Below, piece after piece: positions 61,094-64,000 of a stretch of 64,000 nt of DNA. The DNA is from Faecalibacter rhinopitheci. Its GTDB lineage: Bacteria > Bacteroidota > Bacteroidia > Flavobacteriales > Weeksellaceae. Where the stretch lies: assembly GCF_015234135.1 (NCBI RefSeq), contig NZ_JADGIK010000003.1, positions 248,001 through 312,000 on the forward strand, written 5' to 3'. Both the position numbers and the translations under genes were made by a program. Below the pieces are notes generated by a model, which saw only the letters and a program-made list of their open reading frames with translations, was not told where the DNA came from and searched no databases. Position 1 is the first letter of the stretch. Every line of letters starts with the position of its first letter.

Positions 61094-62119
61094 GTGAAAA
61101 AACTACTATATTTATTCATAATCTTCTTTTCTGCAAACCTATTTGCTCAAGAAAAAGTAGCAATTGGTGAAATACAAAAGATTCAATCGAATGTTTTGGG
61201 AACTGAAAGGGAAATTTGGATTAACCTGCCCGTATCTTATCGTAATTCTAAATTAGATCCTGCGAAATATCCAGTCATTTATGTTTTAGATGCTGAAGAT
61301 AATTTTACGTTTTTAACAGGAATTGTGAATAAATTTCAAAAAGGACATTACCAAGAAATGCCAGAATCGATTATAGTTGGGATTACCAATAAAAATGGCG
61401 ACCGAACAAAAGATTTTACACACGTAAATGATGCAAAGTTTTTGCAATTTATCCAAACCGAATTATTCCCGTTTATGGAGAAAAATTATCGTGTTGAAAA
61501 TTATCGCTTATTGCTTGGACATTCATTGGGCGGATATTTTGCCTTAAAAACATTATACAATCAACCAGAAATGTTTAATGGTTATGTGGCGCACGATCCA
61601 AGTATTTGGTTTAATGATTTTGAATTGAAAAAATTATATCAAAATGTAAAATTGAACGATTTTAAAAATCGATTATTAATGATTACACAAGTGGGCGAAC
61701 GTCAAAATTTTGGACATTTGCAAGATCATTATGGTGGAATAAAAGCGGTTCATTCATTGATTAATGAAGCAAAAAATCAATCGTTAAATTATACTTACCG
61801 TCAATACGCAGACGAAGAACACGGATCGGTACCAATGATTGGAAACATTGATTTTATGCGTTGGATGTTCGACGGCTATCGCATCAACATTAAAGATGTT
61901 CCTAATCAACCAAATTTAATAGAAGGTTCGTTTAAAGCATTTTCATCGAAAAGAAATTTTACATTTCAACCCCAAGAAACATATATTCATTTGGTGGCAA
62001 CTTATTTAGTCAAACAAAAGAAATTTGATTTAGCAAAAAAGTATTTTGAATATAATGTGAATCATTTTCCGCAAAGTGAACAAGCAAAAGAAGCTTTGAA
62101 AAATTTTAAAGTAGAATAG
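61094..62119 (+). CDS. Secreted alpha/beta hydrolase, esterase-D-like (ferric-siderophore esterase type)
   Basis: 341 residues starting at a GTG that directly precedes a signal peptide (MKKLLYLFIIFFSANLFAQ). The body has IQSNVLGTEREIWINLPVSYR, YPVIYVLDAEDNF, RTKDFTH, the nucleophile elbow LLGHSLGGYFALK (Ser), and a late EEHGSVPMIG with the His. This fits the esterase D / Fes-IroE-like putative esterase family. The last 45 residues form a TPR-like helix pair. No siderophore genes are near, so substrate is open. Confidence 0.87.
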   Translation: MKKLLYLFIIFFSANLFAQEKVAIGEIQKIQSNVLGTEREIWINLPVSYRNSKLDPAKYPVIYVLDAEDNFTFLTGIVNKFQKGHYQEMPESIIVGITNKNGDRTKDFTHVNDAKFLQFIQTELFPFMEKNYRVENYRLLLGHSLGGYFALKTLYNQPEMFNGYVAHDPSIWFNDFELKKLYQNVKLNDFKNRLLMITQVGERQNFGHLQDHYGGIKAVHSLINEAKNQSLNYTYRQYADEEHGSVPMIGNIDFMRWMFDGYRINIKDVPNQPNLIEGSFKAFSSKRNFTFQPQETYIHLVATYLVKQKKFDLAKKYFEYNVNHFPQSEQAKEALKNFKVE

Positions 62120-62126
62120 TTATTTT

Positions 62127-62145
62127 GATCTTGTTTCAGAATCAT
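62127..62145. repeat. Fragment of repeat family B
   Basis: ATCTTGTTTCAGAATCAT resembles the right half of the family B copy at 50378. Confidence 0.35.
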
Positions 62146-62165
62146 TTTAAGTTAATATAGAAGAT

Positions 62166-62221
62166 AATTCGTCTACGTTCTCGATATAAAAATCAAAGAT
62201 TTTCACTCGAACTGACGAATT
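62166..62221. repeat. Palindromic repeat family C, copy 1
   Basis: Outer arms AATTCGTC and GACGAATT pair exactly. Inside lies TCTACGTTCTCGATAT, which recurs with one change at 63568-63583. Confidence 0.5.
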
Positions 62222-62237
62222 ACTAATCAATGGTAAA

Positions 62238-62245
62238 TGTCATTC
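62238..62245. other. Left half of the IS110 target site
   Basis: TGTCATTC, ending in the 5-base core CATTC shared with the right end. Joined to the right flank it restores GTCATTCCGAGCTTGTC, a form of palindromic repeat I know to be common in Bacteroidota. Confidence 0.6.
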
Positions 62246-62253
62246 TATGTTTG
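62246..62253 (+). promoter_or_regulatory. -7 box at the first bases of the IS110 left end
   Basis: TATGTTTG matches TAnnTTTG. In the circular form of the element it would be preceded at 20 bases by the TTG at 63405-63407 of the right end, giving a full promoter directed at the bridge RNA region. In the integrated state no TTG lies at that distance. Confidence 0.6.
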
Positions 62254-62289
62254 TAAAAGTTTAAATTAGAAGATAAAACATAGAAGAAA

Positions 62290-62435
62290 AGACCAGGGTA
62301 AAGAAAAAAACTATAGCTTGTCATTTGTCGTTGTAGACCGTTCGGGATGTTAGTTCCTTTACCCTTCCTACAAAAATTTGAACAGAACATTAGGTTATAA
62401 ATCCTGTATTTAGAATAGATAAATTAATGTAGAGA
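62290..62435 (+). ncRNA. Predicted bridge RNA of the IS110 element
   Basis: Two stem-loops by eye. Target loop: AGGGTAAAG (62295-62303) with CTTTACCCT (62357-62365), AACTA (62309-62313) with TAGTT (62351-62355), and a distal GTC/GAC hairpin (62327-62338). On either side of the distal hairpin lie UGUCAUUU (62319-62326), matching the left target TGTCATTC, and UUCGGGAUG (62341-62349), pairing with right target CATTCCGAG using two G-U pairs. Donor loop: CTACA (62368-62372) with TGTAG (62428-62432), AATTT (62375-62379) with AAATT (62421-62425); it holds ACAGAACATT (62382-62391), identical to the right end at 63417-63426, and TAGAAT (62411-62416), complementary to ATTCTA at the left end. Confidence 0.75.
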
Positions 62436-62458
62436 TCTTTTCGATTAAAACATTTGTT

Positions 62459-63414
62459 ATGAGTAAAATTATAGGAATTGACATTAGTAAACAAACATTT
62501 GATGTAAGTTTTCTTGAAAATGAGAAGTGGCAACACCTAATTTTTGATAATAATCAAAAGGTTTTAAAGCGTTAAACCGATTGATTAATCAAGATGATTG
62601 GGTGGTGATGGAAGCCTCTCGCACCTATTATTTTGCGCTAGCAAGTTATCTATTTCAAAAGCATATTCAAGTTTGCGTAGAAAATCCATTGGTGATCAAA
62701 CGTTTCAGTCAGATGATGCTTTATCGAGCTAAAACAGACAAAAAAGATTCCAAAATGATCGCTGAATATGGAATGAAAAACGATTTGAAATTATGGAAAT
62801 TAGAAAGTGAAAATAATATAAAACTTCGACAGCTTTATACGCGATTAGAGCTTATAAACAAGCAAATTCATCAGAATAGCCATCAGTTGGAGTCTTATGT
62901 TAGCAGTGGATGTTTAGATTCATTTTTAGAAAAAGAACTTAAAAAAGATATATGTTATTTAGAAAAATCAAAAGTAAAAATAGAGCAACAAATGCATTTA
63001 TTATCTAAAGCTGAATATGGCGAAACATTAGCCCATTTAGAATCTATTCCAGGAGTTGGTCCCAAAACAGCTATGATGATGGCTTTAATCACAGATAATT
63101 TCAAAAAGTTTGATAATTATAAACAACTCATCGCCTATATCGGATTTAGTCCACGGATCTATCAAAGTGGGAGCAGCGTTCGAGGGAAAGGACATATTTG
63201 TAAAATGGGTAAAGCTCAACTTAGAAAATTACTTTATTTATGCAGTTGGTCAGCCAAATACTGTAATAAATCTTGCAAAGAAATGTACGATCGATTAAAA
63301 GCGAAAGGTAAACCTGAACGAGTAATAAAAGTTGCAATAGCAAATAAACTTATCAAACAGATTTTTGCTATTGGAAAATCTAATCAAAATTATAACGAAA
63401 ATATTTGTTTATAA
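62459..63414 (+). pseudogene. IS110-family transposase, split by a -1 frameshift
   Basis: The first frame runs from ATG 62459 to TAA 62573-62575 and encodes MSKIIGIDISKQTFDVSF and so on (38 residues). The rest, about 280 residues, is in the -1 frame through 63414. Together they give a full DEDD transposase: the first Asp in GIDIS, Glu in DDWVVMEAS, two Asp in RAKTDKKDSKMIAEYG, then the Transposase_20 domain with LESIPGVGPKTAMMMAL and the catalytic Ser in YQSGSSVRGKGH. The frames meet at TTTAAAG (62563-62569). Either one G was lost from an ancestral AAGGGTTTT, or a -1 slip restores the protein. Confidence 0.85.
63405..63407 (+). promoter_or_regulatory. -33 TTG at the IS110 right end
   Basis: TTG lies 20 bases before the end of the CATTC core. 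It forms the upstream half of the promoter that appears when the two ends of the element are joined. Confidence 0.5.
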
Positions 63415-63422
63415 ACACAGAA

Positions 63423-63445
63423 CATTCCGAGCTTGTCAAGGAATC
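63423..63445. repeat. Right part of the host palindromic repeat targeted by IS110
   Basis: CATTCCGAGCTTGTCAAGG then AATC; arms ATTCC and GGAAT pair. The left part of the repeat (TGTCATTC) is found at the other end of the insertion. Confidence 0.6.
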
Positions 63446-63464
63446 TTTTATAAGTTGAATAGGT

Positions 63465-63494
63465 GATGAGAAGTTGAACTAAATTCAGCTTGAT
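63465..63494. repeat. Dispersed palindromic repeat family A, copy 4
   Basis: Arms AAGTTGAA and TTCAGCTT pair with one G-U. Confidence 0.6.
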
Positions 63495-63567
63495 ATTTCC
63501 GTCATATCGAGTGAATTTTAGGAATGAAATGAATAAAATTAGTATCGAGAAATAAGACGGAAATTGG

Positions 63568-63583
63568 TCTAAGTTCTCGATAT
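63568..63583. repeat. Repeat family C, copy 2
   Basis: TCTAAGTTCTCGATAT differs by one base from 62172-62187. An ATATCGAG at 63504-63511 may be its partner arm. Confidence 0.45.
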
Positions 63584-63589
63584 GAATAG

Positions 63590-63621
63590 TTGCTGAGAAG
63601 CTATTTAAATTTAGCTTGATA
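63590..63621. repeat. Dispersed palindromic repeat family A, copy 5
   Basis: Arms AAGCTA and TAGCTT pair exactly, with both sides changed relative to copy 2. Confidence 0.6.
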
Positions 63622-63655
63622 GAATAATTTGCTTAGTTTAGTAAAAACATTCCCA

Positions 63656-64000
63656 ATGAAACAATTTCTTTTCGTGACTACATTATGTGCTTCGACCGCT
63701 TTTGCACAAGAATTGAAAATAGAACAAGCACAAAAGATTTTCGATTTACCGACGCATTGCATCACGATAGAATATCCCAACAAATTAGGAAATGTTTTAG
63801 GTAGTGATGCGGATTTGAAAACGCCAAAGCAATTGCGTCCTATTTTTTACGGCTGTTTTGATTGGCATTCTTCGGTACACGGATTTTGGTCGATTGTAAA
63901 GTTGATGAAAGATTTTCCGGAATTGGATAAAAATGGTGAAGTGCGCCAACAATTAAATGCATTAATCACAGCTGAAAATGTTGCTATCGAAAAAGCATTT
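63656..64000 (+). CDS. DUF2891 family secreted protein, N-terminal part (runs off window end)
   Basis: ATG at 63656 opens 115 codons to the window edge. Signal peptide MKQFLFVTTLCASTAFA, then QELKIEQAQKIFDLPTHCI and the segment LRPIFYGCFDWHSSVHGFW, which is the hallmark of DUF2891 (buried Cys, Asp, Trp and His). The family is of unknown function, with a predicted alpha-barrel-like fold. The frame is intact as far as visible. Confidence 0.82.
   Translation, partial: MKQFLFVTTLCASTAFAQELKIEQAQKIFDLPTHCITIEYPNKLGNVLGSDADLKTPKQLRPIFYGCFDWHSSVHGFWSIVKLMKDFPELDKNGEVRQQLNALITAENVAIEKAF

Follow-up and report, generated by a model that had tools for sequence, protein, structure and literature searches.

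Positions 62290-62435 of the window (by which we mean the whole 64,000-nucleotide stretch of Faecalibacter rhinopitheci DNA that we analysed) almost certainly hold the bridge RNA gene of a Bacteroidota IS110-group element. This assessment covers the proposal as a whole, including a promoter at the junction of the excised ends, pairing by two loops, joining at an AT core, and a copy that is probably immobile. Loop 1 fits its own target and loop 2 its own element ends, in each case on both strands, and both loops covary with the DNA that they fit. The sequence-only reading, which had interpreted the segment as the bridge RNA of an IS110 element, is supported by the structure, by this covariation, and by a fixed insertion target. 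We computed the structure, the covariation of guides with DNA, the target repeat, and the promoter spacing; from IS621 we infer that the RNA would be expressed and bound by the protein, and that the top strand would be cleaved and exchanged at the core.

We propose the following mechanism. In the excised circle, the two ends would abut and form a promoter from TTTG of the right end and TAnnTTTG of the left end. By analogy, this junction promoter would drive transcription of the bridge RNA, followed by that of the transposase. In the RNA, the first loop would pair with the REP-like target, its left guide with the bottom strand and its right guide with the top strand, and the second loop would pair likewise with the two ends of the element where they abut. 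By analogy with IS621, the transposase may then join target and donor at their common AT core, which would put the element within the repeat, after TGTCAT.

The element, its guides, and the state of this copy

The span 62238-63432 reads TGTCAT, then the element with its terminus ACAGAACAT, then TCCGAG (Table 1). The core AT was deduced from the overlap of the left flank with the right end. The coding part 62581-63414 scores above the cut-off for both Pfam domains of the IS110 group, DEDD_Tnp_IS110 (PF01548, the DEDD RuvC-like domain) and Transposase_20 (PF02371, the Tnp domain), and it reaches 160.5 bits with the NCBIfam model for IS110 family RNA-guided transposases (cut-off 140). The closest solved structures are IS621 (E = 7.5e-25) and ISCro4 (PDB 9t56, E = 1.2e-24; this sequence likeness covers the protein alone). 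We rejected TIGR-Tas as a class because NCBIfam TIGR_Tas_endo gave only 22.5 bits (cut-off 100). The closest named relative of the element is a copy in Faecalibacter macacae (L005), with 94% identity across a 277-residue part of the transposase. No other close copies were found in the element's own assembly, and a distant blastn search of a plasmid collection gave no match.

Table 1. Features of the element and of its predicted bridge RNA (positions in the window)
Feature	Position	Strand	Remarks
Left target TGTCAT	62238..62243	+	last two bases (62242-62243) are the presumed core AT
IS110-group element, left to right end	62244..63425	+	1182 bp, one core AT counted; boundaries from conserved ends of relatives and length
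TATGTTTG, left terminus	62246..62253	+	TAnnTTTG -7 box of the proposed junction promoter; overlaps the right donor
Predicted bridge RNA core (target hairpin and donor hairpin)	62290..62435	+	putative RNA start near 62258
Target-binding hairpin	62296..62364	+	stem 62296-62303/62357-62364; inner stem 62309-62312/62352-62355; distal hairpin 62327-62329/62336-62338
Left target guide	62319..62325	+	letters equal left target top strand
Right target guide	62340..62349	+	pairs with right target top strand
Donor-binding hairpin	62368..62432	+	outer stem 62368-62372/62428-62432; stem 62376-62380/62420-62424; distal hairpin 62392-62395/62402-62405
Left donor guide	62382..62391	+	letters equal the element's right end
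Right donor guide	62411..62416	+	complement of ATTCTA at the left junction
Start of transposase reading frame	62459..62575	+	stop after 38 codons (62573-62575)
Remaining IS110 transposase	62581..63414	+	open, in another frame than the start; the ORF list assigns TTG as start codon by a mechanical rule
TTTG, right end	63404..63407	+	proposed upstream promoter box, 20 bases from TATGTTTG once the ends abut
Presumed right core AT copy (63424-63425), then right target TCCGAGC	63424..63432	+

Two smaller pieces of related sequence lie in the same genome. A second IS110 transposase (L004, G000:C8:1-288) is a fragment at a contig start with 49% identity, and its right end is ACACAGTTCATGTTAGC, like that of the L059-L063 group. 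About 14 kb downstream of the element is a 46-base relic of its left end (L002, G000:C23:324770-324815) with 87% identity and no detectable bridge RNA.

The four guide matches that had been read by eye from the window alone are present. First, TGTCATT at 62238-62244 equals the left target guide across 7 nt (8 if a final G-U is counted). Second, the flank CATTCCGAGC (63423-63432) does pair with the right target guide GTTCGGGATG, with two G-U pairs, but over 10 positions rather than the nine that had been counted. Third, the left donor guide ACAGAACATT is identical over ten bases to the right end (63417-63426). Finally, the right donor guide TAGAAT is complementary to ATTCTA at 62242-62247. In 5000 dinucleotide shuffles of the 146 bases of 62290-62435, the left-target match was attained 618 times, the right-target match 58 times, the left-donor match once, the right-donor match 2075 times, and all four together never, so in the window by itself just two of the four matches are improbable by chance. 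The left-target and right-donor matches mean little alone because they are common in shuffles and because the right donor has a second 6-base complement at 62369. The stability of the single-sequence fold was ordinary relative to shuffles (z of -0.30 and -0.36), and an Rfam 15 scan of 62000-64000 with E up to 10 returned no bridge-RNA match (there were four weak matches, all under the gathering score). With two matches at chance level and an ordinary fold, the window alone is at best suggestive, so the case rests on the relatives.

The transposase of this copy is broken, which the sequence-only reading did not mention. The recombinase frame is open in L005 and other relatives and interrupted in the window, where the first catalytic D falls within the separate N-terminal piece. 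(The residues D, E, D, D, and S are visible in the alignment of the relatives; their catalytic role is assigned via alignment to IS621.) Also, the window copy has EASR where the 25 other aligned rows have EASG or EATG. This position aligns with E60-A61-T62-G63 of IS621, in which G63 is described as contacting the core T (PMC11208158). Because its frame is broken, the window copy is probably unable to move by itself. In L005 the frame is open, yet the left donor guide has two mismatches.

We therefore have to consider that the RNA gene of the window copy is a fossil without present function, as part of a decayed remnant. We lean towards this explanation, which is compatible with a bridge RNA at the level of the family, given the broken frame, EASR where EASG is expected, and the single bridge-RNA match in the element's own genome. 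Against it, the guides of the window still fit the target and both ends, and guide TAGAAT and end ATTCTA depart in step from the commoner TAGGAT/ATCCTA, a change that is common to L005. A related transposase could also act in trans, but there is no close one in the assembly, and the sole other match is the fragment L004. The mechanism of the family is well supported, and the copy in the window is probably a relic of recent origin.

Structure and covariation in the relatives

We aligned 29 non-redundant left ends (the window and 28 loci, drawn from 43 loci and 29 further ones). Loci whose RNA duplicates or nearly duplicates that of another row were omitted (L010, L011, L013, L014, L020, L022, L024, L028-L030, L034, L036-L044, L048, L050, and L051), as were L046 and L047, whose left ends are incomplete, and 19 distant loci (L058-L076). 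The RNAalifold consensus has 24 pairs, which form a two-part target hairpin and a donor hairpin, each with a distal hairpin. In 19 of these pairs there is a compensatory change (at least one sequence altered on both sides). Of the cells in paired columns, 98.1% pair, versus 35.1 to 52.6% if the partner columns are slid, and the covariation score is 0.421, versus at most 0.140 when slid and a shuffled mean of 0.202. The number of further pair types does not discriminate (30 versus 28.0; 88 of 500 shuffles attain it). The outer donor stem is blurred in the alignment, and its own-partner fit of 206 exceeds the maximum of 179 in 10,000 permutations. So, the two stem-loops that had been drawn by eye are conserved with compensation.

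With stricter filters, a covariance model detected the RNA in 19 of the 320 family genomes and in 7 of 395 genomes sampled from the order, a sample that also contains own and family genomes. The predicted length is about 175 nt (from near 62258 to near 62432), and the bridge RNA of IS621 is given as 177 nt (PMC11208160). Some matches to the model are short: L130 has 34 bits, and L127 and three matches in G173 stop at contig ends. At L123 (G133:C1:2832956-2836100), a full-length bridge RNA of 128.7 bits precedes a transposase start, and the frame opened there ends early.

Next, each guide was scored against the DNA of its own copy and against that of the other copies, with core letters excluded and with 20,000 permutations that ignore kinship. 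Rows without the flank in the contig were skipped, leaving 26 to 28 of the 29. (For L035 the register of the alignment was used, and because the left guide of this locus is offset by one position, its score comes out lower.) The right target guide fits its own DNA at 5.56 of 6 letters versus 4.24 for others (n = 27), the left donor guide at 6.89 of 7 versus 6.24 (n = 28), and the right donor guide at 3.68 of 4 versus 3.23 (n = 28); none of the 20,000 permutations reached any of these values. For the left target guide the statistic is weaker (3.77 versus 3.43, n = 26, P = 0.010) because GTCAT is nearly invariant among the copies. Not every guide is perfect: the left donor guide has mismatches in L005, L017, and L019, and the right donor guide of L008 fits at 2 of 4 letters.

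The changes on the two sides can be read directly. For the right donor, the guide and end are TAGGAT/ATCCTA in most relatives, TAGAAT/ATTCTA in the window and L005, TACGAT/ATCGTA in Sphingobacterium, and TAAGAT/ATCTTA in Rhodocytophaga (L045). The right target guides end in CTGGATG, CTGAATG, or CCGGAATG opposite CATCCAG, CATTCAG, or CATTCCGG, respectively. In L035 and L045 the left targets differ and so do the left guides. These two loci (a Bacteroidetes MAG and Rhodocytophaga aerolata) are naturally retargeted, with left guides CGCCGT and GGCTCAT and right targets CATTGTTGG and CATTCTCTA, respectively. Thus, with left ends aligned to their own flanks, the loops vary with the target between species.

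A more distant set (14 of 19 loci, with 29-38% identity to the window protein; L058, L064, L073, L074, and L076 were left out because their end patterns are missing or ambiguous) behaves similarly. Ignoring kinship, both donor sides were reached in 0 of 20,000 permutations, the left target had P = 0.00015 over 10 letters and 0.032 over 8 letters, and the right target had P = 0.013 with G-U pairs and 0.051 without them.

Another possibility is that the two hairpins act as a leader controlling transposase translation and that they match flanks and ends only by coincidence. The segment does directly precede the transposase start and two of its four matches are common in shuffles, but in the relatives each copy's loops change together with its own flanks and ends, which makes a leader very improbable. 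Least probable of all, to the point of being negligible, is an IS1111-type element with a guide RNA in its right end: the recombinase superfamily is the same, but the RNA lies in the left non-coding end, which has 215 bases (62244-62458) versus 11 on the right (63415-63425), so that the longer end is upstream of the recombinase, as in the IS110 group.

The insertion target and known systems

The rejoined flanks read TGTCATTCCGAGCTTGTCAAGGAATC, an inverted repeat (ATTCCGAG / C-AGGAAT) that is a REP-like palindrome of the genus. With up to three mismatches allowed, 23 of 320 family genomes and 12 of 14 genus genomes contain the rejoined target (a control with the pattern backwards gave 0), and five genomes of the genus have copies with one mismatch. 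The element's own genome has two matches, namely one GTTATT... copy and the right junction of the element, and the exact intact target 11-mer GTCATTCCGAG does not occur there (0 matches; control 0). A looser REP pattern matched 14 of 14 genomes of the genus but was discarded as unspecific in the element's own genome (17 matches versus 12 for the control). We also do not claim GCAAATACNTTGTTAGC as an abundant second repeat targeted by the L059-L063 group, as it is in just 2 of 14 genomes of the genus.

At all of the insertions that we examined in Polaribacter Hel1_85 (7/7) and Sphingobacterium CZ-2 (11/11), GTCAT precedes the element and CATTNCGA follows it; the guide mismatches the N of CATTNCGA at 4 of the 7 Polaribacter sites. 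Near-identical elements at different sites thus keep their guides and share one type of target. In 9 of 11 loci examined in the genus, the element is missing between the same two neighbor genes, which lie close together. (The other two loci had no downstream match within the stretch examined.) The intergenic flanks (62166-62232 and 63497-63582) are themselves dispersed repeats of the genus. In G211, the repeats of these flanks form tandem-like arrays with a regular spacing of about 144 bases (near C1:1814400-1815500). In Polaribacter, one copy (L012) has inserted into the bridge RNA gene of another copy, within its donor hairpin, with the left flank ...CTTGAACAGATCATTAGACAT.

Two-armed guide RNAs of this type entered the literature in 2024. 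One paper predicts bridge RNAs for 85.7% of IS110s and also states that IS110s insert into REP elements (PMC11208160). As the principle, the four-guide logic, the location in the left end, and the REP targets are published (PMC11208160, PMC11208158, PMC11187229), we regard the element as a well-supported new example and not as a new system. The earlier claim of an undescribed member with a flavobacterial target holds as to the example and overstated its novelty. The main text of PMC11208160 contains neither Bacteroid nor Flavobact, and no paper in the open literature that we searched contains both "bridge RNA" and "Flavobacteri".

The predicted RNA resembles the one described for IS621 (PMC11208160, PMC11208158) in several ways: it lies in the left end, ahead of the gene for a homologous recombinase; a target loop is followed by a donor loop; the left guide has the letters of the top strand and the right guide pairs with it; a small hairpin separates the guides of each loop; T is second in the core; a putative promoter would span the abutted ends, as the one of IS621 does; and the target is of REP type. 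The differences are an AT core as deduced here versus CT in IS621, about 9-10 pairs versus 4 for the right target guide, 6 contiguous pairs versus 2+4 for the right donor guide, a putative junction promoter of Bacteroidota type versus one of sigma-70 type, and a target that, unlike that of IS621, is a flavobacterial REP-like palindrome. The seekRNA of ISEc21, of IS110 type, is alike by description rather than by sequence: the guide RNA comes from the upstream non-coding region and matches both target strands, and there is a circular intermediate with a junction promoter (PMC11187229).

These comparisons extend the four-guide reading to a Bacteroidota group, on sequence evidence, and the predicted guide pairing explains why these elements are present in flavobacterial REP-like repeats. 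L035, L045, and the L059-L075 groups provide examples of natural retargeting. These natural sets of guides, targets, and donors, in which the core is AT or GT and the right target guide is long, would be useful for choosing bridge recombinases.

The proposed promoter at the circle junction

Promoters of Bacteroidota type have an upstream TTG or TTTG box. The flavobacterial sigma-A -7 box is TAnnTTTG, at -12 to -5 (PMC9723704). With right and left ends abutted, 39 of 41 distinct junctions have TTG at a spacing of exactly 20 bases upstream of the terminal TAnnTTTG (by row count, 29 of the 39 have TTTG); the two that lack TTG are both from Polaribacter. In integrated copies, TTG is at the corresponding position of the left flank in 4 of 61 distinct cases. 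The junctions were located with search patterns containing TATGTTT or TAAGTTT and thus most of the -7 box, which leaves the distance to TTG as the sole independent test of the promoter. We propose that the junction forms a putative promoter of Bacteroidota type, which gives a testable candidate. It is already known that abutted IS110 ends form a promoter (PMC11208160, PMC11187229); the Bacteroidota form of it was not found in the open literature that we searched.

A broader reading, which we favor somewhat, is that this Bacteroidota branch of IS110 has an excision switch inside the recombination site. TAnnTTTG would be both the -7 box and part of the right donor, with the TTG box in the opposite end, so that guide RNA and transposase would be made only from the circle, and the guides would change along with the REP-like repeats of each host. 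If so, the DNA of the left donor guide, which is identical to the right end, could act as a false end and leave mini-elements without a transposase, as in L124.

A search of 320 genomes for mini-elements that end at the left donor guide gave two exact matches, L124 and one in G094 that we rejected (it has coding-like sequence and 10.2 bits with the model). L124 (G286:C57:80686-80811) has no transposase and consists of the left end and the target hairpin up to the left donor guide. In this one case, ACAGATCAT of the guide meets TGCGAGG at the core, as though the DNA encoding the guide had been used as the right end, and a deletion between two copies of ACAGATCAT would explain it equally well.
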